DNA of 64,000 nt. It comes from Halopolyspora algeriensis (GTDB lineage: Bacteria > Actinomycetota > Actinomycetes > Mycobacteriales > Pseudonocardiaceae). Under the pieces are notes generated by a model. The model worked only from the letters and a program-made list of their open reading frames with translations, made no database searches and had not been told where the DNA came from. The translations under genes and the position numbers were made by a program. Position 1 is the first letter of the stretch. The number at the start of each line of letters is the position of its first letter. Below are positions 26,288 through 44,932 of this stretch, piece by piece. The DNA lies in NCBI RefSeq assembly GCF_003337235.1, contig NZ_QPJC01000003.1, positions 223,724 to 287,723 of the forward strand, in the 5' to 3' direction.

Positions 26288-26911
26288 GTGGAGGCCGAGC
26301 AAGCAGACACGCATCCGGTGGCAACCGCATCCCGCAAGCGACTTCCTCGGGCCGAACGCGAGCGCCAGATCCTGGAGGTCGCCGAGGAGGTGTTCGCCAC
26401 CCGGGGCTACCAGACCACCTCGATGGACGACATCGCCCAGCGTGTGGGCCTGTCCAAACCGATGCTCTACGAGTACTTCGGCTCCAAGGACGGGTTGCTG
26501 CTGGCCTGCCTCGAACGCGCCAGGCGGGAACTCCTGGAAAGCACCACGGCCGCGGCCGCGAACGCGGTCGGCCCCGAACAGCTGTTGCACGACGGCCTGC
26601 TGGCCTTCTTCCGGTTCAGCGACGAACACCGGCAGGCATGGGCACTGCTGCGCAACGAGTCCACCGTCCCCAGCCTGCCGGTCAACTCCGAACTCGAGTC
26701 GATCCGCAGCCAGCAGGTCGAGTTCACCGCGGACATGTTGCGCCTCTCGCTGCCCAACATGAACGAGGAACGGCTCGAGGCCTTCGCCGAAGCGATCATC
26801 GGTGCCTGCGAGCGGCTGGCCATGTGGCGCGAGAGGCGACCGGAGATCACTCCGGAGGTCGCCACCGAGCACCTGATGGCACTCGTCAGTCCGAGCCTCA
26901 CCACCGCCTGA
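26288..26911 (+). CDS. TetR-family transcriptional regulator
   Basis: This 207-residue protein has an N-terminal helix-turn-helix at about residues 24-65 (RQILEVAEEVFATRGYQTTS, then MDDIAQRVGLSKPMLYEYFG). It is followed by a helical ligand-binding and dimer domain. The GTG start is at 26288. It is divergent from the monooxygenase gene with direct repeats in the 111-base gap. It probably represses that gene and itself and is released by a small hydrophobic ligand that I cannot name. Confidence 0.92.
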   Translation: MEAEQADTHPVATASRKRLPRAERERQILEVAEEVFATRGYQTTSMDDIAQRVGLSKPMLYEYFGSKDGLLLACLERARRELLESTTAAAANAVGPEQLLHDGLLAFFRFSDEHRQAWALLRNESTVPSLPVNSELESIRSQQVEFTADMLRLSLPNMNEERLEAFAEAIIGACERLAMWRERRPEITPEVATEHLMALVSPSLTTA

Positions 26912-28168: not shown

Positions 28169-30388
28169 TCAGGCGGCCACCGCAGTGACCACCTCGGCAT
28201 CCGGTTCACCGGCGTCGAAGGCCTCGCCCGCTTCGGCCTTGGCCACCAGCGAAGCCGGCGGCTCGAAACGCTCGCCGTAGCGGGCCGCGAGTTCCCGCGC
28301 ACGCTCGACGAAACCGGCCAGACCACCCGGGTAGCCGTTCATGTACTGCACGACTCCGCCGGTCCACGCGGGGAAACCGATTCCGAGGATGGAGCCGACA
28401 TTGGCGTCGGGCACCGACTCCACCACTCCCTCGTCGAAACAACGGACGGTCTCGAGTGCCTCGATGAACAGCATCCGCTCCTCGAGGTCGGTGAGGTCGA
28501 TCTCGCCGGGATCACGGCTGTCGGCTCCGAAGTGCTCCTGCAACCCCGGCCACAGGCCCGCGCGCTCACCGTCGGCGTAGTCGTAGAAGCCGGCGCCACT
28601 GGCGCGTCCCTTCCGGTCGAACTCCTCGACCATGCGGTCCAGCACCTCATCCGCCGGATGCGGTGTCCAGGCGCCGCCCGCGGCCTCGACGGCCTGCCGC
28701 GTCTCTTCCCGGATCTTGCGGGGAAGGGTGAGCGTGAGCTCGTCGTAGAGCTGCAGGACCGGGGCGGGGAATCCGGCCTGGGCGGACGCCTGCTCGATCG
28801 AGGCGGCGGGCACTCCCTCGGTCAGCATCGCCACGCCCTCGTTGAGGAACGTGCCGATCACCCGGCTGGTGAAGAATCCCCGGCTGTCGTTGACCACGAT
28901 CGGCGTCTTGTTGATCCGGCGCACGACGTCGAAAGCCTTCGCCAGTGTTCGGTCGCTGGTCTGTTCACCGCGGATGATCTCCACCAGGGGCATCTTGTCC
29001 ACCGGCGAGAAGAAGTGCAGGCCGATGAAGTCGGCCCGGCGGTGCACGCCCTCGGCCAACCCCGTGATCGGCAGTGTGGACGTGTTCGAGGCGATCACCG
29101 CGCCCTCGGCGACGACCTCTTCGGCCTGGGCGTACACCTGGTGCTTGACCGTGGTGTCCTCGAAGACGGCCTCGATCACCAGGTCACATCCGGCGAGCTG
29201 ATCGGCCTGGTCGGTCGCGGTGATGCGGGCGAGCACGGCGTCGCGTTCCGACTCGCTGGAGCGCCCCTTGGACACGGCCTTGTCGAGGATCCTCGCGGAG
29301 TAGGACTTGCCCTTTTCGGCCGCTTCCACGGAGATGTCCTTGAGCACGACCTCCATCCCCGCCTTGGCGCAGACGTAGGCGATGCCCGCGCCCATCATGC
29401 CGCCACCGAGCACGCCCACCTTGCTCGCATTCCACTCCGGCACGTCCTGCGGGCGACTGCCTCCGGAGTTCACGTGCTGCAGGTCGAAGAAGAACGCCTT
29501 GCTCATGTTCTTCGACGTCTGCCCGCACAGCAGCTCCAGGAAGTACCGGCCCTCGATGGTCAGGGCGGTGTCGACGTCGACCTGCGCGCCCTCCACGGCA
29601 GCGGCCATGATGTTGCGCGGCGCGGGCAGCGGCACTCCCTTGAGCTGCTTGCGCAGGTTCGCCGGGAAGGCGGGCAGGTTGGCGGCGAACTTCGGGTCCG
29701 ATGGTGTACCACCGGGGATCTTGTGGCCCTTGCGGTCCCACGGCTGAGTGGCGTCCGGGTTGGACTTGATCCACTCCTTGGCCTTGCTCATCATCTCGTC
29801 GGAGTCCGCGGCGAGCTCGTCGATGAGGCCGAGATCCTTGGCCTTGCCGGGCCGCAGCTGCTGCCCCTGGAGGAGCACCTGCATCAGGGCGTCGGCAATG
29901 CCGAGCATCCGGACCGAGCGGACCACGCCACCGGCACCGGGCAGCAGTCCCAGCGTGACCTCGGGGAAGCCGAAGCGCACGCCGGAGGTGTCGACGGCGA
30001 TGCGGTGGTGGCAGCCGAGCGCGATCTCCAGGCCACCGCCGAGGGCGGTCCCGTTCAGCGCGGCGACCACCGGAACTCCCAGGGTCTCCAGTCGCCGGAG
30101 CTGCCGCTTGGCCGTGGTGCTGGTCTCGGCGACCTCCTCGGCGTTGTCCGGGCGTGCCCGGATGAGGTTGCGCAGGTCTCCGCCGGCGAAGAAGGTCTTC
30201 TTGGCGGAGGTGAGGACCACACCGGTGATGCTGTCTCGTTCCGCCTCGAGGCGTTGGAGGGTTTCCTCCATCGAGCGCAGGTAGCGCTCGTTCATGGTGT
30301 TGGCCTGCTGCTGGGGATCGTCCAGGGTGAGCACGACGACGCCGTCGGCGTCACGATCGGTCCAGCGGATGGTGCTCTGCTCGCTCAT
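28169..30388 (-). CDS. fadB: Fatty-acid oxidation multifunctional enzyme (enoyl-CoA hydratase / 3-hydroxyacyl-CoA dehydrogenase)
   Basis: This 739-residue two-domain enzyme hydrates enoyl-CoA and oxidises 3-hydroxyacyl-CoA with NAD. The crotonase domain (residues about 10-190) includes GTALGGGLEIALGCHHRIA. The dehydrogenase domain has the NAD motif VLGGGMMGAGIAYV near residue 325 and the catalytic-histidine region GLHFFSPVDKMPLVE. The C-terminal domain completes the family architecture. The length and layout match mycobacterial FadB. fadA lies 261 bases upstream on the same strand, so the pair forms a beta-oxidation unit. The gap is long enough for a separate promoter. Confidence 0.94.
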   Translation of the reverse strand: MSEQSTIRWTDRDADGVVVLTLDDPQQQANTMNERYLRSMEETLQRLEAERDSITGVVLTSAKKTFFAGGDLRNLIRARPDNAEEVAETSTTAKRQLRRLETLGVPVVAALNGTALGGGLEIALGCHHRIAVDTSGVRFGFPEVTLGLLPGAGGVVRSVRMLGIADALMQVLLQGQQLRPGKAKDLGLIDELAADSDEMMSKAKEWIKSNPDATQPWDRKGHKIPGGTPSDPKFAANLPAFPANLRKQLKGVPLPAPRNIMAAAVEGAQVDVDTALTIEGRYFLELLCGQTSKNMSKAFFFDLQHVNSGGSRPQDVPEWNASKVGVLGGGMMGAGIAYVCAKAGMEVVLKDISVEAAEKGKSYSARILDKAVSKGRSSESERDAVLARITATDQADQLAGCDLVIEAVFEDTTVKHQVYAQAEEVVAEGAVIASNTSTLPITGLAEGVHRRADFIGLHFFSPVDKMPLVEIIRGEQTSDRTLAKAFDVVRRINKTPIVVNDSRGFFTSRVIGTFLNEGVAMLTEGVPAASIEQASAQAGFPAPVLQLYDELTLTLPRKIREETRQAVEAAGGAWTPHPADEVLDRMVEEFDRKGRASGAGFYDYADGERAGLWPGLQEHFGADSRDPGEIDLTDLEERMLFIEALETVRCFDEGVVESVPDANVGSILGIGFPAWTGGVVQYMNGYPGGLAGFVERARELAARYGERFEPPASLVAKAEAGEAFDAGEPDAEVVTAVAA

Positions 30389-30649: not shown

Positions 30650-31864
30650 TCACTCGGTTCGTTCGACGATGGTGGCGATCCCCATCCCTCCACCGATGCA
30701 CAGCGTCGCCAGGCCGTAGCGCTGGTTGCGGCGCTCCAGCTCGTCGATGAGGGTGCCGAGAATCATCGCGCCGGTCGCGCCGAGCGGATGGCCCATGGCG
30801 ATGGCTCCGCCGTTGACGTTGACCTTCTCGTGTGGCACGCCGAAGTCCTTCATGAACTTCAGCGGCACGGCGGCGAATGCTTCGTTGATCTCGACGAGGT
30901 CGATGTCGTCGATGGACATCTTGGCCTTGCCGAGCGCCTTGCGCACGGCCGGGCCGGGGCCGGTCAGCATGATCGTGGGGTCGGCGCCGCTGAGCGCGGC
31001 GGAGACGATGCGGGCGCGTGGGCGCATGCCGGTGCGTTCCCCGAACTCGTCACCGCCGATCAACGCCAGCGCGGCACCGTCGACGATGCCGGAGGAGTTG
31101 CCCGGCGTGTGCACGTGGTTGATGCGCTCGACCCAGTGGTACTTCTGCAGGGTGACGGCGTCGAAACCGCCCATGTCGCCGATTCCCGCGAAGGACGGTT
31201 GTAGTCCACCGAGGTCTTCCACGGTGGTGTTGGCGCGGATGTGCTCGTCCTTGTCGAGCACGGTGAAACCGTTGCGGTCGGTCACCGGAACCACGGAGCG
31301 CGCGAAGCGTCCGTCGGCCCATGCCTTGGCGGCGCGGGTCTGCGATTCGGCGGCGAAGCCGTCGACGGTCTCGCGGTCGAAGCCCTCCAGGGTGGCGATC
31401 AGATCGGCGCCGATGCCCTGGGGAACGAACGAGGTGTCCAGGTTGGTTTCCGGGTCCAGGGCCCACGGGCCGCCGTCGGTGCCCATCGGCACTCTCGACA
31501 TGGATTCCACACCGCCCGCGAGCACCACGTCCTCCCAGCCGGAGCGGACTTTCTGCGCGGCCGTGTTGACGGCCTCCAGACCGGAGGCGCAGAAGCGGTT
31601 GAGCTGCACGCCACTGACGGTCTCGGGCAGGTCCGCCGCGAGAGCGGCGGTTTTGGCGATGTCGCCTCCCTGGTCCCCGACGGGCGTGACCACACCCAGG
31701 ACGACATCGTCGATCGTTTGCGGGTCCAGTTCCGGGTGACGCCGGCGTATCTCCTGAATGAGACCGACGACCAGGCTGATCGGTTTGGTCCCGTGCAACG
31801 ACCCGGTTTTCTTTCCACGACCGCGCGGTGTGCGGATCGCGTCGTAGACGAACGCCTCGGACAT
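30650..31864 (-). CDS. fadA: Acetyl-CoA C-acyltransferase (thiolase)
   Basis: This 404-residue thiolase cleaves 3-ketoacyl-CoA with CoA. The acyl-accepting cysteine is Cys92 in NRFCASG. The C-terminal motifs [15 protein letters not shown] and CIGGGMG carry the catalytic His and the second Cys. ATG 31864 is chosen over 31900 because resemblance begins at [15 protein letters not shown]; a GGAGGAGG lies 12 bases upstream. It partners with fadB downstream. Its promoter overlaps the palindrome at 31907-31927. Confidence 0.94.
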
Positions 31865-31906: not shown

Positions 31907-31927
31907 TGTGACACCACCGCTGTCACA
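31907..31927 (-). promoter_or_regulatory. Palindromic operator in the fadA promoter
   Basis: TGTGACA-N7-TGTCACA, perfect arms, is centred 53 bases upstream of the fadA start. A TTGACT at 31932-31927 on the minus strand overlaps its upstream edge, so the palindrome lies between the -35 and the expected -10. The same architecture occurs at 41811-41831. Confidence 0.7.
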
Positions 31928-31950
31928 GTCAATGGGTCGAGTAGCTGGGC

Positions 31951-31980
31951 GGGGACATTCCTCGCCGGAGGAATGTCCCC
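31951..31980 (-). terminator. Terminator after the lactate permease gene
   Basis: GGGGACATTCCTC and GAGGAATGTCCCC form a perfect 13-bp stem with the loop GCCG. On the minus strand it lies 54 bases after the permease stop and just upstream of the fadA promoter, insulating the two. Confidence 0.75.
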
Positions 31981-32034
31981 GTTGCCCCTACCGTCCCGGA
32001 CGCGGGCCGCGTGCGCAGGACGAGCCACCGTCCC

Positions 32035-33825
32035 TCATCGCAGGGCATCCTCGCTGCTGTCGGGATGCTCCTCGACCGACCGGCGCAGCCACAGCACACC
32101 ACCGAGCAGCACACCACCGAGCAGCACCAGCATGGTGGTACCGAGGTTCGCACCGAGCCCGTTGGTCAGCACGAACGCCAGCGCACCCGCGAACAGGCAG
32201 TAGTACATCAGCGGAAAGACGGTCTTGCGAATGAGATCGCCCTCCCTGCCCAGCAGGCCCACGGTCGCCGACGCGGCCACCACGTTGTGCACGGTGATCA
32301 TGTTGCCCGCAGCGCCGCCCACCGCCTGGGAGGCCACCACCGTCTCCGGTGCCACACCGATCTGCTCGGCGGTGGAGAACTGAAACAGCGAGAACATCAG
32401 GTTGCTGACCGTGTTGCTGCCCGCGACGAACGCGCCCAGCGCACCGATCCAGGGCGCCAGCACGGGCCAGGCCCCACCGGCGATCGTGGCCGCACCGTCG
32501 GCCAGCGTCATCGGCATGCTCTCGTAACCGGACACGTTGAACTCCGTTCCGGAATTGATGAACACCCGCACCAGCGGCAGCGCGAACAGCAGGGCCACGG
32601 CCGCACCCGCGATCTGCCTGCCTGCCACCTGCCACGACGCCACGATCTGCCGCCTGCTCATCCGGTGCAGGCCGTAGGTGGCGACGCAGGCCACGATCAG
32701 CACGAAACCCGGGATGTAGAGCGGCTGCAGGCTTTCGGAAACCTCGGTACCGAAGATGCCCTCGAAATCCAGGGACACTCCACTGAGGAACTCCTTGATC
32801 GGCGTCACCGTCCTGGTGAGCACCAACAGCGCGGCGACCAGCAGGTACGGCGCCCAGGCACGGGCCGGGTGCATCGCCGTGCCGGTCACATCACCATCGG
32901 GCTCGACGTTGCCCGTCCACCGGGCAGGCCAGCCTCGCCGGTCCGGGAAGTCCCAGTTCCGCGCGGGCATGAACAGGCCGCGGCGGGCGGCGGCGACCAC
33001 GATCGTCAGGCCGATCAGCCCTCCCAGCAGCGCCGGGAATTCCGGGCCGAGCACAGCGGCGACCACGAGGTAGGGCACCGTCATCGCCAGCGCGGCGAAC
33101 AGCGCGAAGCGCCACACGCCGAGTCCCTCGCCGAAGCGGCGGTTCTCCCCGAAGAACCCGGTGAGCATGCAGGCCAAGAACAGCGGGATCAGCGTGCCGA
33201 TGATCGCGTGCATCAGCGCGGCGTCCAGGGCGATGCGGGCGACGTAGCCGGGCATGTCCACACCCAGGATCGAGGCCCGTTGCTCCACGGCCGCGCTGCC
33301 GCTGAGGCCGTCGGTGACCCCGACCAGGATCGGTGTGCCGACCGCGCCGAAGGTCACCGGCGTACTCTGGATGATCAATCCCACCATCACCGCCGCCATG
33401 GCGGGAAAGCCGAGCGCCAGGAGCAACGGGGCCACCACCGCTGCCGGGGTACCGAATCCCGAGGCCCCTTCGATGAAACTCCCGAACAGCCAGCCGATGA
33501 TGATGGCCTGGATGCGCCTGTCCGGACTGATGTCGGTGAAGGTGGCTCGGATCGCCGACAGTGCCCCGCTCTTGCCCAGTGTCTCGAGCAGCAGCAGCGC
33601 ACCGAACACGATGTAGAGCAGGCCGAGCGCGAGGATCAATCCCTGCACGCTCGACGCCGCGACCACCACGGGTTCGACGTCCCACGTGAAGACGGCCGCG
33701 AGGACGACCACGACGAATCCGACCGGCATGGCGTATTTGGCGGGCCACCGCAAACCCACCAGAAGGATGCCGACAACCACGATCGGGGATAGGGCGACCA
33801 TGCTGAGAACTGCGAGGTCACCCAT
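32035..33825 (-). CDS. lldP: L-lactate/glycolate permease (LctP family)
   Basis: This 596-residue membrane protein with about 14 hydrophobic segments belongs to the lactate permease family. The conserved stretch IIGWLFGSFIEGASGFGTPA (residues about 113-132) is the family signature. It should import L-lactate, D-lactate or glycolate with protons. I chose ATG 33825. A GTG at 33834 is in frame but has no room for a ribosome site. It lies downstream of glcDEF with a terminator-like hairpin and an inverted repeat in the 250-base gap. Its substrate thus fits glycolate or lactate oxidised by the neighbouring enzyme. Confidence 0.9.
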   Translation of the reverse strand: MGDLAVLSMVALSPIVVVGILLVGLRWPAKYAMPVGFVVVVLAAVFTWDVEPVVVAASSVQGLILALGLLYIVFGALLLLETLGKSGALSAIRATFTDISPDRRIQAIIIGWLFGSFIEGASGFGTPAAVVAPLLLALGFPAMAAVMVGLIIQSTPVTFGAVGTPILVGVTDGLSGSAAVEQRASILGVDMPGYVARIALDAALMHAIIGTLIPLFLACMLTGFFGENRRFGEGLGVWRFALFAALAMTVPYLVVAAVLGPEFPALLGGLIGLTIVVAAARRGLFMPARNWDFPDRRGWPARWTGNVEPDGDVTGTAMHPARAWAPYLLVAALLVLTRTVTPIKEFLSGVSLDFEGIFGTEVSESLQPLYIPGFVLIVACVATYGLHRMSRRQIVASWQVAGRQIAGAAVALLFALPLVRVFINSGTEFNVSGYESMPMTLADGAATIAGGAWPVLAPWIGALGAFVAGSNTVSNLMFSLFQFSTAEQIGVAPETVVASQAVGGAAGNMITVHNVVAASATVGLLGREGDLIRKTVFPLMYYCLFAGALAFVLTNGLGANLGTTMLVLLGGVLLGGVLWLRRSVEEHPDSSEDALR

Positions 33826-33874
33826 GGCATTCACATCCGAGCGAACACGGATACGGAATCTGCTGGTACACGCC

Positions 33875-33922
33875 CACTCCTTCGTGTCGAAACCCGGCTA
33901 TTCCGCCGATCACGAAGGAGTG
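33875..33922 (-). promoter_or_regulatory. 12-bp perfect inverted repeat in the permease leader
   Basis: CACTCCTTCGTG and CACGAAGGAGTG are perfectly complementary, 24 bases apart, 50 bases upstream of the permease start. It may be an operator for a dimeric regulator of carboxylate use, or an RNA hairpin in the leader. The right arm contains an AAGGAG that the left arm would mask. Confidence 0.5.
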
Positions 33923-34030
33923 AATGTAGCGCTTCGCAGTGTCACACGACAGGTCTTTCCCGGTACGACTTTCGAGGGATACTATCGCTGCGAGAGCGGC
34001 GATGCGAAAGGTGAAGAACCGCGCGATTTC

Positions 34031-34062
34031 GACGGGGAACGCCCCGAGCGCCGTTCCCCGTC
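34031..34062 (-). terminator. Terminator after glcF
   Basis: GACGGGGAACG and CGTTCCCCGTC form a perfect 11-bp stem with a 10-base loop, 15 bases past the glcF stop on the minus strand, followed by GAAATCGC. It would limit read-through from glcDEF into the permease gene. Confidence 0.6.
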
Positions 34063-34076
34063 GCTGTCGGCGGTAT

Positions 34077-35405
34077 TCACCGCCGCAGCAGCGCCTCCAC
34101 GCCGAGTCCCCGGATCGAGGCGTCGAGCACTTCCACGGTGTGCGCCATCGCCAGCTCCTTCTCGCGCCGCTCCAGTGCGGTGCGAATCTGCATCGAGCAC
34201 CCGGGATTGGCGGTCACCAGCATGTCCGCATCGGTGGCGAGCACGTTGTCGGCCTTGCGGTCACCGAGTTCGGCCGCGGCCCGCGGCTGCAGCAGGTTGT
34301 ACACCCCGGCCGAACCGCAGCACAGTTCCCCGCGATTGATTTCCCGCAGTTCCAGCCCGGGAACGGCACGCAGCAACTCGCGGGGCTGCGTCCGGATCCC
34401 CTGACCGTGACTGAGGTGGCAGGCGTCGTGATAGGCCACCTTCGCGGGCAGCGGATGGCGTTCGGCGACCGTGCCGAGCTCACCCAGCAATTCGGAAATG
34501 TCGCGCACTCGCGCGGAAAACCGCTCGGCGCGCTCGGCATGGTCGGGATCGTCGGCCAGCAGGCGCGGATACTCTTTCAGGGTGGACCCGCAGCCGGCCG
34601 AATTGATGACGATGTAATCCACCTCGGCGGATTCCAGGCGATCCAGCAGGCCGCGGGCGAACCGCACGGCCTCGGACTCGCGCCCGGAGTGCTCGCTCAG
34701 CGCCCCGCAGCATCCCTGCATCGCCGGAATCACCACGTCGCATCCCTCGGCGGCCAGCACCCGCGCGGTCGCGGCGTTGACGCCCGGGAAGAAAGCGCTC
34801 TGCACGCAGCCGGTGATCATGCCCACCACGGCACGCCGCTGCCCGTGCGCCCGCACTCGCTCGGGCAGTTTCGGGGCACGCTCGATCGGCGGTGCGAGCG
34901 ACTCCATCGTCTGCAGATGCTCGGGCAGCTTCGCCAGCAGCCCGGTCCGCCGCAGCAGCCCGGCGAGCCCGAACCGCTGGTACAGCGCGAGCGGGCCGCG
35001 CATCGCCCTGAGCCTGCGCGGATACGGGAACAGCGAGAAGATCGCGCCGCGCAGGGCGCGTTCCCAAAAACCGCGACGATGGCGGCGCTCGACCTGGGCC
35101 CGGGTCTCGGTGATGAGCGTGCCGTACTGCACGCCCGACGGGCAGGCCGTCACGCAGGCCATGCAGCCCAGGCAGTTGTCGAAGTGATCGACCATGCTCT
35201 CCGACAGCGGCTCGCCGTCCAGGCCGGCCTCCATCAGGTGGATCCGGCCGCGCGGCGAGTCCATCTCCTGGCCCCACAGGTCGTAGGTGGGGCAGGAAGG
35301 CAGGCAGAAACCGCAGTGCACACAGTCGTCGACGAGTTCTCGCTGCGGCGGGTGGAAGGCGTCGAAGGCGCCCTCGGTGCCGGGACGGGCGGTGTTGTCG
35401 GCCAT
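34077..35405 (-). CDS. glcF: Glycolate oxidase iron-sulfur subunit
   Basis: This 442-residue subunit carries two 4Fe-4S clusters bound by Cys28/31/34/38 (CVHCGFCLPSCP) and Cys78/81/84/88 (CLGCMACVTACP). Two CCG domains follow (GCCGALSEHSG near residue 230 and ELCCGSAG near 365). It passes electrons from the flavin subunits to the membrane chain. The ATG at 35405 follows GGGAGGA and overlaps the glcE stop by one base (TGATG). It is the last gene of glcDEF. Confidence 0.92.
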   Translation of the reverse strand: MADNTARPGTEGAFDAFHPPQRELVDDCVHCGFCLPSCPTYDLWGQEMDSPRGRIHLMEAGLDGEPLSESMVDHFDNCLGCMACVTACPSGVQYGTLITETRAQVERRHRRGFWERALRGAIFSLFPYPRRLRAMRGPLALYQRFGLAGLLRRTGLLAKLPEHLQTMESLAPPIERAPKLPERVRAHGQRRAVVGMITGCVQSAFFPGVNAATARVLAAEGCDVVIPAMQGCCGALSEHSGRESEAVRFARGLLDRLESAEVDYIVINSAGCGSTLKEYPRLLADDPDHAERAERFSARVRDISELLGELGTVAERHPLPAKVAYHDACHLSHGQGIRTQPRELLRAVPGLELREINRGELCCGSAGVYNLLQPRAAAELGDRKADNVLATDADMLVTANPGCSMQIRTALERREKELAMAHTVEVLDASIRGLGVEALLRR

Positions 35406-36691
35406 CAGATTCCTCCCACGAACCGGCCGGGGGACAAGCGATGTTCCGGGTCGAACTGGTCCTTGGTGCGGTGCATGAGAGTCAGCTCTCCTTCCGCTAT
35501 CGGGCCCCAGGGATCCACGGTCGCGCGCACCGCTTCGGGGGCCCGCAGCACCACGGCATGACCGCCGTACTCGGTGGTCACCGCGCGCAGCTCCCGCACG
35601 AGGTCGGCTACGGCTGCCGGGTCGGCGCTGTCCGGCACCCCGGCGTGGAGCACGCCGAGACCGGCCGAGCCCCGCACCGCCAGCGGCAGGTCGCGGTGGT
35701 CGGCCGCCTGCTGCACCCCGGCCAGCAACGATCCGATCGCGGCGGGTTCGGCGCCGAGCCGCAATCCGGTGCCCCACGCATTCCCGAAGGGATAACGTCC
35801 CCACCAGGGCGGTGCGGCGTCGAGGACCTCGCCGGAGACCCCGACCGTCGCGTCGAGTCTCTCGGCCAGCTCCCGTGCTCGCCGGTGCGTGGCCTGCGGG
35901 CGCCCTTCCAGGTGCGCGCAGACCGTGATCGGGCCGTCCGGTTCGGCCCGGTCCGTCTCGACGGCGGTGGGCATCGCCTGCGAACTCCGCACCGTGTGGA
36001 CGGCTTCACCGGCCGCTCCGGGATCGGACAGGGTCACCGCCACCCAGCGGTGCTCGGCGGCCAGCGGGTGCAGGCGGAAGATGGCCTCGGTGATCACGCC
36101 GAGGGTGCCGTAGGAGCCGGTGTAGAGCTTGCCGAGATCGTATCCGGCGACGTTCTTGACGACCTTGCCGCCGGAGGTGGTCACCACCCCGTCGGCGCGC
36201 ACCACGGTGATGCCGATGAGCAGGTCCCGGACCGCGCCGAACAGGTGGCGGCCGGGCCCGGTCGTGCCCGTGGCGATCACGCCGCCGACCGTGGCCTCGG
36301 GAAAGGGCTGGTCGATCGACAACTGCTGCCCGGCCTCGGCGGCCACCCGCTGCACCTCGGCGAGCGAGGTGCCCGCCCGTGCCCGGAGCACCAGGTCCCC
36401 CGCTGCGTGTTCGCAGATCTCGCTCGCCCGGGACAGATCGAGCACCAGATCCACCGCCTCGACGGTGCCACCCCAGTCGATCTTGCTGCCTGCGCCCCGC
36501 GCGGTGACGCGGAGCCCGTGCTCGGCCGCCACCCGCATGGCCGCCGCGGTCTGTTCGGTGCCGTCCACCGAGGCCACCCATCGGGGCTGCACGCCACCGA
36601 CGGTGTCGGCCTGCCCCGCATCGCGGAGGTGTTCCGTCCCGATCGCGGCTGCCAGAGCCGTCCGTGCCGCCTGCTCGGTCCTCGTCGCCAT
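35405..36691 (-). CDS. glcE: Glycolate oxidase FAD-binding subunit
   Basis: This 428-residue protein has a PCMH-type FAD-binding domain: VTARGAGSKIDWGG near residue 63, then TVGGVIATGTTGPGRHLFG. It has a shortened substrate domain, as GlcE subunits do relative to GlcD. It forms the flavin part of glycolate oxidase with GlcD and GlcF. It overlaps glcD upstream and glcF downstream by one base each (TGATG), a sign of tight translational coupling. Confidence 0.92.
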   Translation of the reverse strand: MATRTEQAARTALAAAIGTEHLRDAGQADTVGGVQPRWVASVDGTEQTAAAMRVAAEHGLRVTARGAGSKIDWGGTVEAVDLVLDLSRASEICEHAAGDLVLRARAGTSLAEVQRVAAEAGQQLSIDQPFPEATVGGVIATGTTGPGRHLFGAVRDLLIGITVVRADGVVTTSGGKVVKNVAGYDLGKLYTGSYGTLGVITEAIFRLHPLAAEHRWVAVTLSDPGAAGEAVHTVRSSQAMPTAVETDRAEPDGPITVCAHLEGRPQATHRRARELAERLDATVGVSGEVLDAAPPWWGRYPFGNAWGTGLRLGAEPAAIGSLLAGVQQAADHRDLPLAVRGSAGLGVLHAGVPDSADPAAVADLVRELRAVTTEYGGHAVVLRAPEAVRATVDPWGPIAEGELTLMHRTKDQFDPEHRLSPGRFVGGI

Positions 36692-38172
36692 CAGAACTGG
36701 TCCGCCAATCCCGCCTCGGTCAGTGGGTGCACACCGCGGCGGGGGCCGGGAGCCTCGCCGCACAACCGCGGTGTCGGAAACACCTTGCCCGGGTTGCAGC
36801 GATTCTCCGGATCGAAGGAGCAACGCACCCGTTGCATGGTGTCGAGGTCGTCGGAGGTGAACATCCGGCCCATGTAGCGGACCTTGTCCGCGCCGACGCC
36901 GTGTTCTCCGGTGATGGATCCGCCGTGCTCCAGGCACAGGTCCAGGATCGCGCCGGAGACCTCCTCCGCTCGTTCGGCCGCGCCGGGGTGGTCCCCGTCG
37001 AACAGCACCAGCGGGTGCAGGTTGCCGTCCCCGGCGTGGAAAACGTTGGCGACCCGCACTCCGGACTCCGCCGAGAGCGCGGAAATGCGGGCCAGCACCT
37101 CGGGCAGCGCCGTCCGGGGGATCACGCCGTCCTGGACGATGTAGTCCCGGCTGATCCGGCCCACGGCGGCGAAGGCGGACTTGCGCCCCTTCCAGATCAG
37201 GGCTCGTTCGGCCTCGTCGGCGGCGACGCGGACCTCGAAGGCGCCGTGCTCGCCGCAGTGGCGCTGCACTTCGGCGAAGGTGTGGTCCACCTCGGCTGCC
37301 GGGCCGTCCAGTTCGACCACCAGCACCGCCCCGGCCCCCTCCGGGTAACCACAGTGGACCGCCTGTTCGGCGGCCTCGATGGACAGGGCGTCCATCATCT
37401 CGATCGCCGCGGGAGTGACCCCGTCGGCGATGATCGCCGAAACCGCCGCACCCGCCTCGTCGGTGGAGGGGAACCCGGCCAGCAGTGTGCGCACCGACTC
37501 CGGGCTCCGCAGCAACCGCACGGTGATCCGGGTGGCCACACCGAGCGTCCCCTCGCTGCCGATGAACGCGCCGAGCAGGTCGTACCCGGGTGCGTCCGGA
37601 GCGCGGCCGCCGAGCTCGACGAGTTCACCATCGGGTGTGACCACCTCCATGGCGAGGATGTGGTTGGCGGTGAAGCCGTACTTCAGGCAGTGCGCCCCGC
37701 CCGAGTTCTCGGCGACATTGCCGCCCACCGAGCAGACCTGCTGACTGGAGGGATCCGGCGCGAAGTAGTACCCGTACGGCGTGGCCGCCCTCGTGACGTC
37801 CAGGTTGATGACACCGGGTTCGACCACGGCCCGCTCGTTGGCGATGTCGACCTCGAGGATGCGACGCATCCTCGAGGTGACCACGAGAACGCCGTCGGCG
37901 TGCGGGAGAGCACCCCCGGACAGGCCGGTTCCCGAACCGCGCGCGACGAAGGGAATCCCGTACTCCGCGCAGGCGCGCACCACCGACCGGACCTGCTCGG
38001 CATCCTCCGGCAGCACCACCACGGCGGGCACGACGCGATGATTGGCCAGGCCGTCGCACTCGTAGGTGCGCAACTGCTGCGGGTCGGTGATCACCGCATC
38101 CGGCGCGAGGGCGTCGCGGAAACGACGGATCAGCGCGTGCAGGGTGGAGCTCTGCTCACCGTTTGCGACCAT
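36691..38172 (-). CDS. glcD: Glycolate oxidase catalytic FAD subunit
   Basis: This 493-residue FAD enzyme of the VAO family oxidises glycolate or D-lactate. FAD contacts appear in FVARGSGTGLSGGA and SVGGNVAENSGGAHCLKYG. The FAD-oxidase C-terminal domain has HAGDGNLHPL and EHGVG motifs that hold the metal and substrate site. ATG 38172 has GGGAGG nine bases upstream. A second ATG at 38181 is too close to that site but overlaps the phosphodiesterase stop (ATGA). It is the first gene of glcDEF. Confidence 0.93.
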   Translation of the reverse strand: MVANGEQSSTLHALIRRFRDALAPDAVITDPQQLRTYECDGLANHRVVPAVVVLPEDAEQVRSVVRACAEYGIPFVARGSGTGLSGGALPHADGVLVVTSRMRRILEVDIANERAVVEPGVINLDVTRAATPYGYYFAPDPSSQQVCSVGGNVAENSGGAHCLKYGFTANHILAMEVVTPDGELVELGGRAPDAPGYDLLGAFIGSEGTLGVATRITVRLLRSPESVRTLLAGFPSTDEAGAAVSAIIADGVTPAAIEMMDALSIEAAEQAVHCGYPEGAGAVLVVELDGPAAEVDHTFAEVQRHCGEHGAFEVRVAADEAERALIWKGRKSAFAAVGRISRDYIVQDGVIPRTALPEVLARISALSAESGVRVANVFHAGDGNLHPLVLFDGDHPGAAERAEEVSGAILDLCLEHGGSITGEHGVGADKVRYMGRMFTSDDLDTMQRVRCSFDPENRCNPGKVFPTPRLCGEAPGPRRGVHPLTEAGLADQF

Positions 38173-38177
38173 CCCGA

Positions 38178-39341
38178 TCATCCTCCCGTGACCAGCAGTG
38201 GAACGTACTGTTCGGCGGCGGTGAGGGAACCGTGCTGGCCCCGCAGTGCCGACTCGCCCGGCTCCAGGACCGAACGGATCACCCCGGCCGTACGCATCAC
38301 CGCGAGCACGTCGCCGATGCGCGAGCGCACGTCCTCGGTGACGGCAGGGCCGAACCAGCCCTCGTCGATCGCCTGCTCGCCGGTCAGCACCAGGCCACGA
38401 TCGCCGATGTGCTCCCGCCAGGCCGCACACACATCATCCCGCGCTCCGGGTTCGGCATAGACGTGACGAGCGCGCACTTCACCACCGACCAGCCGCACAC
38501 CGTCCCGCAGTGTCGGTTCGGTGTCGACATCGACCGTCTCCCCGGGATCGACGGTGACCATGCCGTGATCGGCGACGACGGTGAGCGCGCTGCCTGCAGG
38601 CAGACGTTCGGCCAGCGAGGACAGGAACCGGTCCACCTGCTCGAGCTGCATCAGCCACGGCAGTGAGCCGGGACCGTGCAGGTGACCGAGCAGATCGAGA
38701 TGCCCGTGGTAGCCGTAGCACAGCGTCGGGCCGGCAGCCCCGGCCGCATCGAGCAGCTCCGCCGCGAGATCACCGAAGGCCTGCACACCACGGAACTCGG
38801 ATCCCCGCAGCGCAGCCCTGGTCAGACCGGTGTTCGCGAAGTCGCGCGGCACCGCGATGCGGACATCGACGCCGGCAGCCGCGGCCTGTTGGAACACGGT
38901 CGGGTGCGGCTGCGCCCGCTCCGGCTGCCACGCATCGAGCATGCTGCTGCGCTGCCCCGCGGCAGCCTCCGCCGTGCCGTGCGTCGACCAGGACAGCGGA
39001 TGCAGCAGGCCTCCCGAGGGCTCGGCGAACGTGTAGCCGACCACCCCGTGCTCGCCCGCACACCGGCCGGTACCCAGCGAGGTCACGCTGGTGGCCGTCG
39101 TCGTCGGAAACCCGGCCCTGCCGGGAGCGCCGCCGGCCAGGGAAGCCAGGAAGGGAGCATGGCTCGCGTGTTCGTGCAGCAATGTCCAGCCGAGTCCGTC
39201 GACGAGCACCACCACCGCCGTCCGGCACCCGGGGATACCGATGGTGTCGGTGAATCCGGTGATGCCGAGCGCGGCCAGTGCGGAGGGCAGCACATCGGCA
39301 AGGCCGCGCCCGGCACTGTCCGGAGCGACGATCCAATCCAC
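38178..39341 (-). CDS. Type I phosphodiesterase / nucleotide pyrophosphatase family protein
   Basis: This 387-residue enzyme has the alkaline-phosphatase fold. Metal ligands and nucleophile are visible in VVLVDGLGW (Asp), FPTTTATSVTS (Thr nucleophile), GHLDLLGHLHG (Asp, His) and VVADHGM (Asp, His). No signal peptide is visible. The substrate is not known. The GTG at 39341 follows GGAGAGG. It ends next to glcD within a few bases, so it is co-transcribed with glcDEF, which hints at a role in the same metabolism (for example dephosphorylating a phosphoglycolate-like compound). That link is inference only. Confidence 0.85.
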   Translation of the reverse strand: MDWIVAPDSAGRGLADVLPSALAALGITGFTDTIGIPGCRTAVVVLVDGLGWTLLHEHASHAPFLASLAGGAPGRAGFPTTTATSVTSLGTGRCAGEHGVVGYTFAEPSGGLLHPLSWSTHGTAEAAAGQRSSMLDAWQPERAQPHPTVFQQAAAAGVDVRIAVPRDFANTGLTRAALRGSEFRGVQAFGDLAAELLDAAGAAGPTLCYGYHGHLDLLGHLHGPGSLPWLMQLEQVDRFLSSLAERLPAGSALTVVADHGMVTVDPGETVDVDTEPTLRDGVRLVGGEVRARHVYAEPGARDDVCAAWREHIGDRGLVLTGEQAIDEGWFGPAVTEDVRSRIGDVLAVMRTAGVIRSVLEPGESALRGQHGSLTAAEQYVPLLVTGG

Positions 39342-39435
39342 GGCGCATCCTCTCCGGCCCGACAAGCAACAAGTCCGGCTTCCCGGTGGGAAGCTCACGC
39401 CCAGCTTCGCAGTACCACCGGCACGACAACAGCCC

Positions 39436-40578
39436 CTAGAAGCCCATCGACTTGCCCACGATCTCCTTCATGATCTCGGTCGTACCACCGTAGATCGTCT
39501 GGACCCGGGAATCCAGGAACGCCTTGGCCACCGGGTACTCCGTCATGTAGCCGTATCCGCCGTGCAGCTGCAGGCAGCGGTCCACGACCCGCTTGTTCAG
39601 CTCCGACAGCCACCACTTGGCCATCGCGGCGTGCTCGACACCGAGATCGCCCCGCAGGTGTTCGGTCACGCAGCGGTCGGCGAACACCCGGCCGATCTGC
39701 ACCTCGGTGGCCATCTCGGCCAGTTCGAACCGGTTGTGCTGGAACTTGCCGATCGGACGACCGAAAGCGGTGCGGTTGCGGCAGTACTCCTTGGTGGCTT
39801 CGAGAGTCCGCTCCGCACCGGCAATCGACGCCACCGCGATGGACAGGCGCTCCTGGGGGAGGTTCTGCATCAGGTAGATGAAGCCCTGACCCTCCTCCCC
39901 GAGCAGGTTGGCCGCCGGAACCCGCACGTCGTTGAAGAACAACTCCGCGGTGTCCTGGGACTTCTGGCCGATCTTGTCCAGGTTGCGCCCGCGCTCGAAA
40001 CCGGGCATGCCGCGCTCGACCACCAGCAGGCTGAATCCCTCGTGGCCGGCTTCGGGATCGGTGCACGCCACGACGATCACCAGGTCGGCATTGATGCCGT
40101 TGCTGATGAAGGTCTTCTGACCGTTGAGGATGTAGTCGTCCCCGTCGCGCACCGCGGAGGTGCGGATACCCTGCAGATCACTGCCCGTGCCGGGCTCGGT
40201 CATGGCGATCGCGGTGATCGTCTCCCCGGAGCAGAAACCGGGAAGCCAGCGCTGTTTCTGTTCCTCGGTGGCCAGGCGTGTCAGGTAGGGCGCGTTGATG
40301 TCGTTGTGCACGGGCACGCCGAAACCCGAGACCCCGGCGGCGATCATCTCCTCGTTGAAGACCACGTTGAACCGGAAGTCGTCGACACCGCCCCCGCCGT
40401 GGCGTTCGTCGACCGACATGCCCAGCAGTCCTTGCTTACCGGCGGCAAGCCACGCATCGCGGCTGACGATGCCCGCGGCCTCCCACTCCTCCTGGTGCGG
40501 CACCAGTTCCCCGTCGATGAAGGACCGGGCCGCCTCTCGGAACGCCTCGTGCTCGTCGTCGAACAGTTCCCTGCGCAT
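39436..40578 (-). CDS. Acyl-CoA dehydrogenase
   Basis: This 380-residue FAD enzyme makes the first oxidation in acyl-CoA breakdown. The FAD/substrate motifs are ITAIAMTEPGTGSDLQGIRT and YILNGQKTFISNG. The C-terminal helical domain ends with DSRVQTIYGGTTEIMKEIVG, the form seen in long-chain and isovaleryl-CoA types. In those the catalytic Glu lies in the earlier helix (AERTLEATKEYCRNRTAFG) instead of the YEGT motif. The start ATG 40578 is four bases after the racemase stop. It is the second gene of the racemase-dehydrogenase unit. Confidence 0.92.
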   Translation of the reverse strand: MRRELFDDEHEAFREAARSFIDGELVPHQEEWEAAGIVSRDAWLAAGKQGLLGMSVDERHGGGGVDDFRFNVVFNEEMIAAGVSGFGVPVHNDINAPYLTRLATEEQKQRWLPGFCSGETITAIAMTEPGTGSDLQGIRTSAVRDGDDYILNGQKTFISNGINADLVIVVACTDPEAGHEGFSLLVVERGMPGFERGRNLDKIGQKSQDTAELFFNDVRVPAANLLGEEGQGFIYLMQNLPQERLSIAVASIAGAERTLEATKEYCRNRTAFGRPIGKFQHNRFELAEMATEVQIGRVFADRCVTEHLRGDLGVEHAAMAKWWLSELNKRVVDRCLQLHGGYGYMTEYPVAKAFLDSRVQTIYGGTTEIMKEIVGKSMGF

Positions 40579-40582
40579 GGGA

Positions 40583-41755
40583 TCACGCATCCTTTCGGTT
40601 CGGCCGAACGGCTCCGGAATCGAGCAGTCCTTCGGCACCGGCGACCCGCCACTCCCGCAGCACGGACTCGCTGTCGGCGCCGGAACGCGGAACCGGCCCG
40701 GGCTCCGGGTTCGGCGTATGGGAAAACCGGGGCGCGGCCGCCGGTTGCAGCGCCCCGCTGTGCTCCACGAGCGACCCGCGTGCCCGCACGTGCGGGTGTT
40801 CGGCGGCCTCGGTCATCGACAGCACCGGGGCCACGCAGGCATCGGAGCCGGAGAAGATCTCCGTCCATTCCTGCCGGGTCCGTGTCGCGAAGACCTCGGT
40901 GAACCGCTCGCGCAGTGCGGGCCAGTTCGACGGATCGTCCCGGTCGGGCACGGCACCGGCCAGCCCCAGGCGCTCCAGGAGCTCGTCGTAGAACTGCGGC
41001 TCCAGCGCCCCGACGGCCATGTACTCGCCGTCGGCGGTGGCGTAGACGTCGTAGAACGGGGCTCCGGAGTCGAGCAGGTTCGTGCCGCGTCGGGTACTCC
41101 AGGAACCGGTCGCCAGCATGCCGAACAGCATTGTTCCCAGGTGTGCCGAGCCGTCCACGATGGAGGCATCGACAACCTGGCCGCGCCCGCTGCCGCGCGA
41201 TTCCAGCACGGCCGCCAGGACCCCGACCGCGAGGTACATCGCGCCCCCGCCGAAGTCACCGAGCAGGTTGACCGGCACCTGAGGAGGGCCGTCCGCCCGG
41301 CCGATCCCGTGCAGCATCCCGCTCAGGGCGATGTAGTCGATGTCGTGCCCGGCACTGGCCGACAGTGGGCCGTCCTGGCCCCATCCGGTCATCCGCCCGT
41401 AGACCAGGCCGGGGTTGACCTTCCAGCACGCATCGGGGCCGACTCCGAGGCGCTCGGCAACGCCCGGGCGGAAACCCTCCAGCAGCACATCGGCCTGTTC
41501 GACCAACCCGAGCACGGCGGCCGGTCCTCGCTCGTGCTTGAGGTCCACCGAGATCGAGCGCTTGCCGCGGTTGAGCAGATCACCCTGCTCGCCCGCGCCG
41601 GCGGGGCGGTCCACGCGCACGACATCGGCGCCCAGATCGGCCAGCAGCATGGCGCAGAAGGGGGCGGGTCCGATCCCGGCCAGCTCGACCACCCGGATTC
41701 CGGACAGCGGACCCCGCCCGGTAACCCGTTTCCCGGAATCCTCGTCTGCTGCCAC
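40583..41755 (-). CDS. Alpha-methylacyl-CoA racemase (CaiB/BaiF family III)
   Basis: This 390-residue protein epimerises 2-methylacyl-CoA so that branched fatty acids or sterol side chains can enter beta-oxidation. Compared with mycobacterial MCR, the catalytic His137 lies in AGHDIDY, the Asp in NLLGDFGGGAM near residue 165, and the Glu in AVGALEPQFYDELL near residue 250. These favour a racemase over a CoA-transferase. The GTG at 41755 follows GGGAGGTG. It leads into the acyl-CoA dehydrogenase and is divergent from a MerR regulator. Confidence 0.88.
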   Translation of the reverse strand: MAADEDSGKRVTGRGPLSGIRVVELAGIGPAPFCAMLLADLGADVVRVDRPAGAGEQGDLLNRGKRSISVDLKHERGPAAVLGLVEQADVLLEGFRPGVAERLGVGPDACWKVNPGLVYGRMTGWGQDGPLSASAGHDIDYIALSGMLHGIGRADGPPQVPVNLLGDFGGGAMYLAVGVLAAVLESRGSGRGQVVDASIVDGSAHLGTMLFGMLATGSWSTRRGTNLLDSGAPFYDVYATADGEYMAVGALEPQFYDELLERLGLAGAVPDRDDPSNWPALRERFTEVFATRTRQEWTEIFSGSDACVAPVLSMTEAAEHPHVRARGSLVEHSGALQPAAAPRFSHTPNPEPGPVPRSGADSESVLREWRVAGAEGLLDSGAVRPNRKDA

Positions 41756-41810
41756 GTTCCCACCTCCCTGCGTGCCTGTGTCCGCCGACACAGGATTACG
41801 ACGCAAGTAG

Positions 41811-41831
41811 TGTTACACCGCTGGTGTCACA
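41811..41831. promoter_or_regulatory. Palindromic operator between the racemase and MerR genes
   Basis: TGTTACA-N7-TGTCACA (one arm mismatch) lies 17 bases upstream of merR and 56 bases upstream of the racemase start. On the minus strand a TTGACC (41839-41834) sits at its upstream edge, as in the fadA promoter. The shared form suggests one regulator for both sites. Confidence 0.7.
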
Positions 41832-41847
41832 CCGGTCAAGGAGTATT

Positions 41848-42639
41848 GTGCGACGCATGCTCCGGACAGCGGACGAAGAGCTCACCATCGACGAACTGGC
41901 AGCACGTGCGGGCGTCACCGTGCGCACCGTTCGGTTCTACGCTTCCCGCGGGCTCCTGCCTCCCCCGCGCCTGCGCGGTCGACTGGGACTGTACGGGGGC
42001 GACCATCTCGCGCGGCTCGACCTCATCCGGGAGCTCCAGGCACTCGGATTCACCCTGACGGCCATCGAGCACCACCTCCAACGCATCCCGCACGATGCCC
42101 CGCCCGAGGAACTCGCACTGCAGCGAGCACTGCTGGCGCCGTGGACCAGCGACCAGACCGAGGACATCGACCGGCACGAACTCAATCGGCGCGCCGGCCG
42201 TCCCCTCGACGACGAGCGGATCGAGCAGCTCGCCACGCTCGGCATTCTGGAGCGCATCGACGACGATCCGGACCGCGTGCGCCTTTCCAGTACCGCGATG
42301 CTGGGCATCGGCATGCAGATCCTCGATCTCGAGCTACCGCTGGACATGATGGTGCAGGCCAAGCGGATCGTCGAGCAGCACACCGCGCAGATCGCCGCCG
42401 ACCTGCGCGAGCTGTTCGCCGCCCACGTGCTGCGGCCCTATGTCGAGCGCGGCAGGCCGGAGGACGAGCGGGAGCGAGTGCGGACCGCGACCGACCGGCT
42501 CCGGCCATTGACGATCCAGGTCCTGGTCAACGGCTTCCAGCGAGCCGTCAACGACGTGATCCGCGATCACGTCGAGGAGCACGCCGACGGCACACGTCTC
42601 CACCGGGACACCGACACGGGCGAGGAGGACAGCCAGTAG
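41848..42639 (+). CDS. MerR-family regulator, probable controller of fatty-acid genes
   Basis: This 263-residue protein has an N-terminal MerR winged helix (LTIDELAARAGVTVRTVRFY, then ASRGLLPPPRLRGRLGLYGG; residues about 10-75) and a coupling helix. The long helical C-terminal domain has no metal-binding Cys cluster. It is therefore likely to sense an organic ligand such as an acyl-CoA. The GTG at 41848 has AAGGAG five bases upstream. The adjacent palindrome at 41811-41831 also occurs in the fadA promoter 10 kb away, which makes this protein the best candidate for a shared regulator. Confidence 0.85.
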   Translation: MRRMLRTADEELTIDELAARAGVTVRTVRFYASRGLLPPPRLRGRLGLYGGDHLARLDLIRELQALGFTLTAIEHHLQRIPHDAPPEELALQRALLAPWTSDQTEDIDRHELNRRAGRPLDDERIEQLATLGILERIDDDPDRVRLSSTAMLGIGMQILDLELPLDMMVQAKRIVEQHTAQIAADLRELFAAHVLRPYVERGRPEDERERVRTATDRLRPLTIQVLVNGFQRAVNDVIRDHVEEHADGTRLHRDTDTGEEDSQ

Positions 42640-44135: not shown

Positions 44136-44932
44136 TTACCGGCTGCGCCGTTGCTTTGCCGCCAGAGCCGGCGATCGCCACCCCGCGTCGGCCGGATTCA
44201 GCGTCGTGCCGGGTGGCACGATCTCGTCGATGCGGTCGAGCGTGCTCTCGTCGAGCTCGACCTCGGTGGCACCGAGCTGGGATTCGAGAGGTTCCATCGT
44301 GCGCGGTCCGATGATCGCCGAGGTGACCGCCGGATGCTCCAGAACGAACGCCAGCGCGAGATCGATCAGCGTCAGCCCGGCATTGTCGGCCAGTTCCACC
44401 AGTGATTCGACCGCGTCCAACTTGCGCTCGTTGTCCGCTGTGGAGGGATCGAACTGCGACATCGAGGCCCACTGGGCCCGCTGGGTCCGCACTTCCTGCC
44501 CCCGCCGCGAATCAGATCCGTCAGCGCGGCCAGTGTCTCGTCGATGTGCGTGTCGGGGTCGGGCCGGTGGATCTGGTACAGGTCGATGTGGTCGGTACCC
44601 AACCGGCGAAGGCTGTTCTCGACCTCGCGGACCAGCCAGCGCCGTGAGTTCCCCCGCATGTTGGGGTCCTCACCCATCGACCCGTGGGCCTTGGTCGCCA
44701 GTACGACATCGTCACGGCGGCCGCCCGCCAGCGCCTTGCCGACGATCTCCTCCGACTCTCCCCGCGAGTACACATCGGCAGTGTCGATGAAGTTGATCCC
44801 CGCGTCCAGTGCGCGGTGGATGGTGCGGATCGAGTCGTCGTGATCGGCGTTGGCCCAGGCGCCGAAGTTCATCGCGCCCAGGCACAGCGGGCTGACCTTG
44901 ACCCCGGTGCGCCCGAGAGAAACGTGATCCAT
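44136..44932 (-). pseudogene. Aldo/keto reductase, internal deletion plus frame change
   Basis: The N-terminal part (from ATG 44932; [20 protein letters not shown], then [20 protein letters not shown]) is intact through [11 protein letters not shown], about residue 140. Directly after it, in another frame, the sequence continues as [20 protein letters not shown] and runs to the normal C-terminus at 44136. The stretch of roughly 80-100 residues that should lie between (active-site strands and the PYS/PLAGG region) is missing. The junction is near 44505-44512. The gene cannot make an active TIM barrel. Confidence 0.85.

Follow-up and report, generated by a model that had tools for sequence, protein, structure and literature searches.

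A 64,000-nucleotide stretch of the Halopolyspora algeriensis genome (the window) carries two copies of a 21-bp palindrome that appear to be operators of a MerR-family protein encoded beside one of them. One copy (O1) precedes the thiolase gene fadA, and the other (O2) lies between the divergent genes caiB and merR. We put the probability that the MerR protein binds both palindromes and represses fadAB, caiB-acd, and merR at about 0.72. A real, conserved, and narrow regulon of this protein over beta-oxidation genes is strongly supported by comparison of related genomes; within that picture, we consider binding of the protein to the operators very likely and repression likely. The features concerned are as follows.

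31907..31927, operator O1, TGTGACACCACCGCTGTCACA: putative operator 42 bp before the fadA ATG (31864), also found 5' of the fadA orthologue in Saccharopolyspora and Actinopolyspora relatives
31928..31932, minus strand (that of fadA): TTGAC, -35-like, abutting O1
41797..41803: TACGACG, a degenerate third half-site in a 14-bp register with O2
41811..41831, operator O2, TGTTACACCGCTGGTGTCACA: putative operator in the caiB-merR gap, 25 bp before the merR ATG (41857), kept 5' of merR orthologues
41835..41839, minus strand (that of caiB): TTGAC, -35-like, 3 bp from O2
41844..41849, plus strand: TATTGT, predicted -10 element of merR, 7 nt before the ATG
41857..42639, plus strand: merR, the regulator, 260 amino acids (MerR_1, 73.4 bits against a cut-off of 21.6)

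A preliminary description of this DNA had reported TGTGACA-N7-TGTCACA at 31907-31927 and TGTTACA-N7-TGTCACA at 41811-41831, with merR adjoining the second site; coordinates, arms, 7-bp spacing, and the position of merR were all correct. It had also placed a TTGAC flush against both sites, which holds at fadA, while at the second site the two are separated by 3 bp. The genome scan that it proposed returned exactly two sites, both at promoters of acyl-CoA genes and 10 kb apart: in the whole 4.56 Mb genome, O1 and O2 are the only exact matches to TGTNACA-N7-TGTNACA, and the reversed pattern used as a control has none. When up to 2 mismatches were allowed, the window held 3 matches (O1, O2, and one overlapping O1) against a shuffle mean of 0.61, and 0 of 100 shuffles reached 3. 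Over the whole genome, the same tolerance gave no excess (18 matches versus 24 for the reversed-pattern control), leaving the two exact sites as the only distinctive ones. A 42-site profile that includes O1 and O2 themselves was also run over the genome, with 150 of 1181 first-look candidates scored. It returned O1 and O2 at E values of 0.008 to 0.009 and the next place at 2.5, with none below 2.4; the genome has further thiolase-like genes, yet the profile lifts only these two sites above noise. A wider regulon in this genome was considered, and given the loose-match counts and the profile result, we claim no more members.

The argument for a regulon comes mainly from relatives. Taking as an orthologue any match to the MerR protein better than E 1e-40 (the next match lies at 4e-25), we found one in 25 of 100 genomes, the source genome included. 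An exact site is present in 14 of the 25 but in only 6 of the 75 others (Fisher p 1.8e-6). The reversed pattern matches nowhere in the 25 and 9 times in the 75, so the sites in the latter look like chance. Of 24 exact sites in the 25 genomes, 23 are at merR, caiB, or fadA promoters; the lone exception (L057) and the 6 sites of the 75 have no cluster gene within 1.5 kb. A second count covered 100 orthologue loci (20 plus 80 from two samplings, 1.63 Mb), which include close relatives and at least 2 genomes twice; sites were taken at up to 1 mismatch, and overlapping sites were counted singly. The nearest start to the resulting 160 sites was that of merR for 53, acd for 52, caiB for 37, fadA for 13, and fadB for 0, which leaves 5 elsewhere, and seven control patterns gave 0. 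Those 5 (L169, L173, L174, L182, and L185) are Streptomycetaceae caiB promoters. Counted instead by gene start, a site is present at merR in 85/100, caiB in 36/49, fadA in 26/55, acd in 28/74, and fadB in 0/59. Many fadA and acd starts lack a site because the genes are internal to an operon, and the 15 merR starts without one are only partly explained. A subset of 39 named genomes, drawn from the 80, contained 46 exact sites in 36 genomes, 44 of these sites at cluster promoters; the remaining two (G121:C31 and G135:C6) have no window cluster gene within about 2.8 to 3.2 kb. The reversed control gave 17 matches there, 15 in Actinomadura-group genomes (one per genome, except for one genome with two). 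Across several actinobacterial genera (relatives in Saccharopolyspora, Pseudonocardia, Actinomadura, and Streptomyces), the site is found in company with merR and the caiB, acd, fadA, and fadB genes. This footprinting over many genera strongly supports the earlier suggestion of one regulon that includes the adjacent merR.

The putative target genes in the window are these.

28169..30388, minus strand: fadB, enoyl-CoA hydratase/3-hydroxyacyl-CoA dehydrogenase (3HCDH_N, ECH_1), adjoining fadA in relatives
30650..31864, minus strand: fadA, acetyl-CoA C-acyltransferase (thiolase) of PRK08242 type (Thiolase_N/C; NF006090, 695 bits versus a cut-off of 514)
39436..40638 (open reading frame [ORF]), minus strand: acd, acyl-CoA dehydrogenase (Acyl-CoA_dh_N/M/1), following caiB in relatives
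40583..41758, minus strand: caiB, family III CoA-transferase and possible acyl-CoA racemase (CoA_transf_3); the ORF opens at 41806, and GTG 41758 is the start predicted by inspection

The acd ORF overlaps the end of caiB, and by inspection its real start is probably near 40578-40590. The designation of caiB as a methylacyl-CoA racemase gene in the preliminary description goes no further than membership in the CoA_transf_3 (CaiB) family allows; with all 7 listed NCBIfam models, the score stayed below the cut-off.

As judged from the sequences, the operator tracks the first gene of the cluster despite varying gene order: fadA in L100 and L103, caiB in Streptomyces, and acd in Actinomadura. The order merR/caiB-acd, then fadAB with a second operator, occurs in L098, L099, and L102, and the same order with oxidase genes interposed is found in the window, L090 to L092, and L094 to L097 (the L093 stretch ends before fadA). 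Elsewhere, merR is divergent from fadAB with the operator in between (L100, L103), precedes fadA in the same direction (L101, L105, L106), or stands in the arrangement merR/fadA-fadB-acd-caiB (L107, L109). Most loci of Streptomyces and Kitasatospora have merR opposite a caiB-acd-fadA-fadB operon, and across the 24 loci L166-L189, the operator is at caiB in 20 and at merR in 15. Actinomadura has merR divergent from acd, and Pseudonocardia has it divergent from fadAB. The loci L107, L108, and L109, from another family of the order, hold no TGTNACA-type operator. Their merR-fadA gaps carry a CAGT-N3-ACTG dyad (L107:9602, L108:10071, L109:9789), which is the inner core of many operators and in L107 and L109 sits within TGCCAGT-N3-ACTGGCA. 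The fetched stretches of the Actinomadura-group loci L124-L152 show no fadAB beside merR and acd, and fadAB was not looked for elsewhere; the 14 genomes of this group that were scanned had one exact site in 12 cases, none in one, and two in one.

TGTNACA is itself palindromic, so the arms of every site can also be taken as direct repeats with a period of 14 bp. This register extends beyond single sites: 39 of 40 offsets between neighbouring sites up to 60 bp apart equal 14, and 39 of the 100 relatives' loci have three half-sites at exact 14-bp spacing, the printed examples being merR promoters (window 41797-41831, L090, L124, L178, and others). A third half-site at 14 bp may accommodate two side-by-side dimers.

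The regulator has the hallmarks of the MerR family, namely, an N-terminal winged helix-turn-helix recognized by profile and by structure and a dyad of about 18 to 22 bp at its own promoter, here the 21-bp dyad found 5' of merR in most loci. ATG 41857 is the better-placed start, as the first GTG of the ORF (41824) falls inside the operator. The predicted layout is a winged helix at about residues 9 to 80, a second winged-helix-like part at about 102 to 143, and two long helices at 162 to 247. The protein contains no cysteine, and neither do 53 of 56 aligned rows; it therefore lacks the usual metal or redox ligands, in agreement with the preliminary description, which had called it a MerR protein without metal ligands. 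One protein in the comparison (P0103) is 59% identical to the regulator and has the source label Mycobacterium tuberculosis; it ranks among Actinomadura proteins, and the label may be wrong.

A Foldseek search with the model of the C-terminal domain suggested what this part might sense. Ten PDB matches had an E value below 0.05 (3e-4 to 1.5e-2, probability 0.99 to 1.00), and each of these ten best matches was to Rv1264, an adenylyl cyclase of mycobacteria. The predicted domain thus appears to share the fold of the Rv1264 regulatory domain, Rv1264N (PF16701, Ad_Cy_reg). The Rv1264 structure contains oleic acid, which also activates the related Rv2212 (PMC12505454). The acyl-CoA-like ligand named in the preliminary description is plausible, and the modeled fold suggests a fatty acid or an acyl chain. 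In our estimate, the odds that the signal is a long-chain fatty acid or acyl-CoA are about even. An Ad_Cy_reg match is also found in an adenylyl cyclase-like ORF of the source genome (G000:C5:71639-71926, L228).

The arrangement of promoter elements around the operators bears on the sign of control, about which the preliminary description was silent. Gap counts for TTGAC and TANNNT were made on hand-picked promoter sets. On the merR strand, the distance from the operator to TANNNT is exactly 12 nt in 16/16 caiB-group merR promoters and in 9/10 further ones; in Pseudonocardia merR promoters, it lies 17 nt past the operator in 12/14. Because this element is only 6 to 8 nt before the start codon in the merR examples measured, the merR mRNA is probably leaderless, with the operator over its -35 region. 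TTGAC precedes the operator by 3 bp in 14/16 merR-side caiB-group promoters and in 14/14 Pseudonocardia fadA/merR promoters, and of the nine fadA promoters included, eight have it abutting the operator; two more outside the count (L099, L102) are without TTGAC. In loci where caiB is no longer next to merR (L112, L115, L116, L119, L120, and L123), the operator copy at merR has lost TTGAC and keeps TANNNT, and separate operator copies at caiB keep TTGAC in 4/5, suggesting that TTGAC serves caiB and TANNNT serves merR. In Streptomycetaceae, the caiB promoters with a site (20/20, among the loci L166-L189) read TTGNNN-17-TANCAT, a pattern set after inspection of the sequences, and the operator starts 6 nt after the -10 element, likely over the caiB start site. 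None of these 20 promoters has the classical MerR layout, in which the operator is centred in a 19- to 20-bp spacer between -35 and -10. A normal 17-bp spacer needs no untwisting, so the site there would act by blocking, and an operator position that shifts between lineages fits a repressor better than a MerR activator. Overall, the promoter evidence favours repression.

We propose the following mechanism. The MerR-family protein would bind both copies of the palindrome, one dimer reading the two arms, and in the absence of the signal it would repress fadAB, caiB-acd, and merR itself. As O2 spans the predicted merR -35 region and lies inside the caiB promoter, a single bound dimer could shut both divergent promoters, and O1 would shut fadAB in the same manner. 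When fatty-acid levels rise, a long-chain fatty acid or acyl-CoA would bind the C-terminal domain, release the repressor, and turn beta-oxidation on; this last step follows from the predicted Rv1264-like fold of the sensor part. In its widest form, the proposal is that some actinobacterial MerR repressors form a class in which the DNA-binding domain is joined to the oleate-binding sensor module found in adenylyl cyclases of mycobacteria. A single lipid-sensing fold would then serve both cyclic AMP (cAMP) signalling and direct control of beta-oxidation genes, the latter by a roadblock rather than by promoter untwisting. We regard this generalization as tentative and its odds as a little short of even.

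Some observations weigh against this picture. The sign of control cannot be read off from the window promoters themselves, and attempts at sequence-level proof of kinship with Rv1264 failed throughout. The Pfam profile for Ad_Cy_reg (PF16701) had no match at E values up to 1 in the five proteins scanned, the regulator among them. A profile-profile comparison with the cyclases was collinear over 135 columns, a weak match (probability 1.7%, P 0.029) that used 14 of 18 cyclase loci; the other four did not show the search signature and were omitted, among them the two best Pfam matches (L220, L221). Shuffles scored as high in 6 of 150 cases, with a longest run of 89 columns. Finally, a search of 8667 ORFs, many of them likely non-coding frames, placed 10 of 14 cyclase ORFs within the first 303 non-MerR ranks, none significantly.

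The same protein could instead be a classic MerR activator seated in the -35/-10 spacer, where it would hold the promoter shut until ligand-driven untwisting of the DNA opened it. In favour are its MerR_1 N-terminal domain and the position of TTGAC ahead of the dyad in the window. At fadA, the centre of the dyad falls 10 nt past TTGACT, midway along a would-be 19-bp spacer, and promoters of Saccharopolyspora, Actinopolyspora, and Pseudonocardia have kept TTGAC with a gap to the operator of either 0 or 3 bp. However, that gap differs by 3 bp between the two window promoters, so one fixed activator geometry cannot serve both. When the window fadA and caiB promoters were inspected for a spacer-activator layout with a clear -10 element, by eye no hexamer stood out and no conserved -10 was apparent at 19 to 20 bp. 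The Streptomycetaceae caiB promoters, with their 17-bp spacer and an operator downstream of the -10 element, speak against activation as well, and we judge it unlikely. Another view, that the two sites resemble each other by chance, draws on the genome-wide loose-match count, in which two mismatches are allowed and the pattern does not outnumber its reverse; it can be dismissed almost completely, given the exact count of 2 versus 0 at acyl-CoA gene promoters, conservation over many genera, and the 155 of 160 near-matches at cluster starts where seven controls gave 0.

Repression of beta-oxidation by the MerR protein would also be compatible with a different signal, such as a branched-chain or methyl-branched acyl-CoA on which CaiB and Acd act. 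This possibility departs from our proposal in the ligand step only, and its odds overlap those of our proposal; we hold it to be a serious contender that falls somewhat behind the long-chain ligand. The CoA_transf_3 family takes in racemases that act on methyl-branched acyl-CoAs, most Streptomycetaceae loci have caiB and acd together with fadAB, and the likeness of the sensor to Rv1264 is weak by sequence. Against it, every one of the ten top structural matches is a chain of the oleate-holding Rv1264. As the window alone cannot tell which protein binds, the palindrome might also belong to another regulator encoded elsewhere, for example, of TetR, GntR, or CRP type, with merR merely one of its targets. 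A TetR gene lies at 26288-26911, and the TGTGA/TCACA arms resemble those of CRP-type sites. A CRP site spans 16 bp, however, versus 21 bp overall here, and the TetR gene recurs only in L090 among 20 loci, several of which end before its expected place. Moreover, the site is tied to the presence of a merR orthologue (14/25 versus 6/75) and stands in merR's own promoter in 85/100 loci, which leaves a separate binder very improbable.

Other parts of the window lie outside the proposed regulon. Between fadA and acd (32035-39398) are genes for a lactate permease, an FeS protein, two GlcD/GlcE-like oxidase subunits, and a phosphodiesterase, and the window scan found no operator copy at any of them; the oxidase and phosphodiesterase genes nevertheless stay between fadA and acd in Saccharopolyspora and Actinopolyspora relatives. 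The TetR gene near fadB, present too in a same-genus genome (L090), is a possible second regulator of the region. At 44136-44932, two overlapping minus-strand ORFs match the N- and C-terminal parts of an aldo/keto reductase, as if the gene were frame-broken.

If correct, our reading supplies a candidate local regulator of beta-oxidation for a broad actinobacterial set that includes Saccharopolyspora erythraea and S. spinosa, producers of an antibiotic and an insecticide whose polyketides draw on the same acyl-CoA pools. Operator, regulator, and ligand class are named precisely enough for direct binding tests, and the sensor-fold link, if true, joins two lipid-signalling systems.

Several known systems invite comparison. 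PsrA, a regulator of fatty acid degradation, is not a member of the MerR family. FadR (GntR family), PsrA, and FadP (TetR family) control fatty acid degradation, the job proposed here for the MerR protein, and are described in Proteobacteria; FadR and FadP are not MerR proteins either (PMC5343134). The classical MerR activators (MerR, CueR, CadR, SoxR, and BmrR) have the N-terminal winged helix in common with the regulator described here, which differs in having no cysteine and, in Streptomycetaceae, an operator outside the 19- to 20-bp spacer. Rv1264N shares its fold with the predicted C-terminal domain, but there it gates a cyclase, whereas here the fold would be joined to a DNA-binding domain. 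We know of no earlier report of a link between MerR proteins and the Rv1264 sensor fold, although no search was aimed at that link. The MerR domain resembles that of SCO5550 (PDB code 2dg6; 1.9 Å over 78 residues), described as an actinobacterial MerR protein with a non-classical dimer (PMC5045206). SCO5550 was set aside as a full-length model, as only its MerR domain fits well and 2dg6 is not among the best 50 matches listed for the C-terminal model.

Streptomyces coelicolor has fadAB in common with the window. According to a 2017 Streptomyces fadAB study, that species has three fadAB clusters, two next to other fatty-acid genes, two of the three promoters are enhanced by oleate, and the regulatory signals and genes of triacylglycerol (TAG) and fatty acid catabolism there were undescribed (PMC5539140). 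Among the literature matches listed, at title and abstract level and with subscription papers mostly outside the scope, none describes a MerR regulator of fatty-acid genes in actinobacteria. LiuR resembles the present regulator in that it controls acyl-CoA catabolism. It likewise belongs to the MerR family, and its regulon, for branched-chain amino acid utilisation in Proteobacteria, was derived from comparative genomics (PMC5343134). The LiuR regulon is larger (mean, 13.7 genes per genome; PMC5343134), whereas the one proposed here is narrow (fadAB and caiB-acd), is actinobacterial, and has a regulator with a long C-terminal domain; among the literature matches listed, LiuR is the closest known system.

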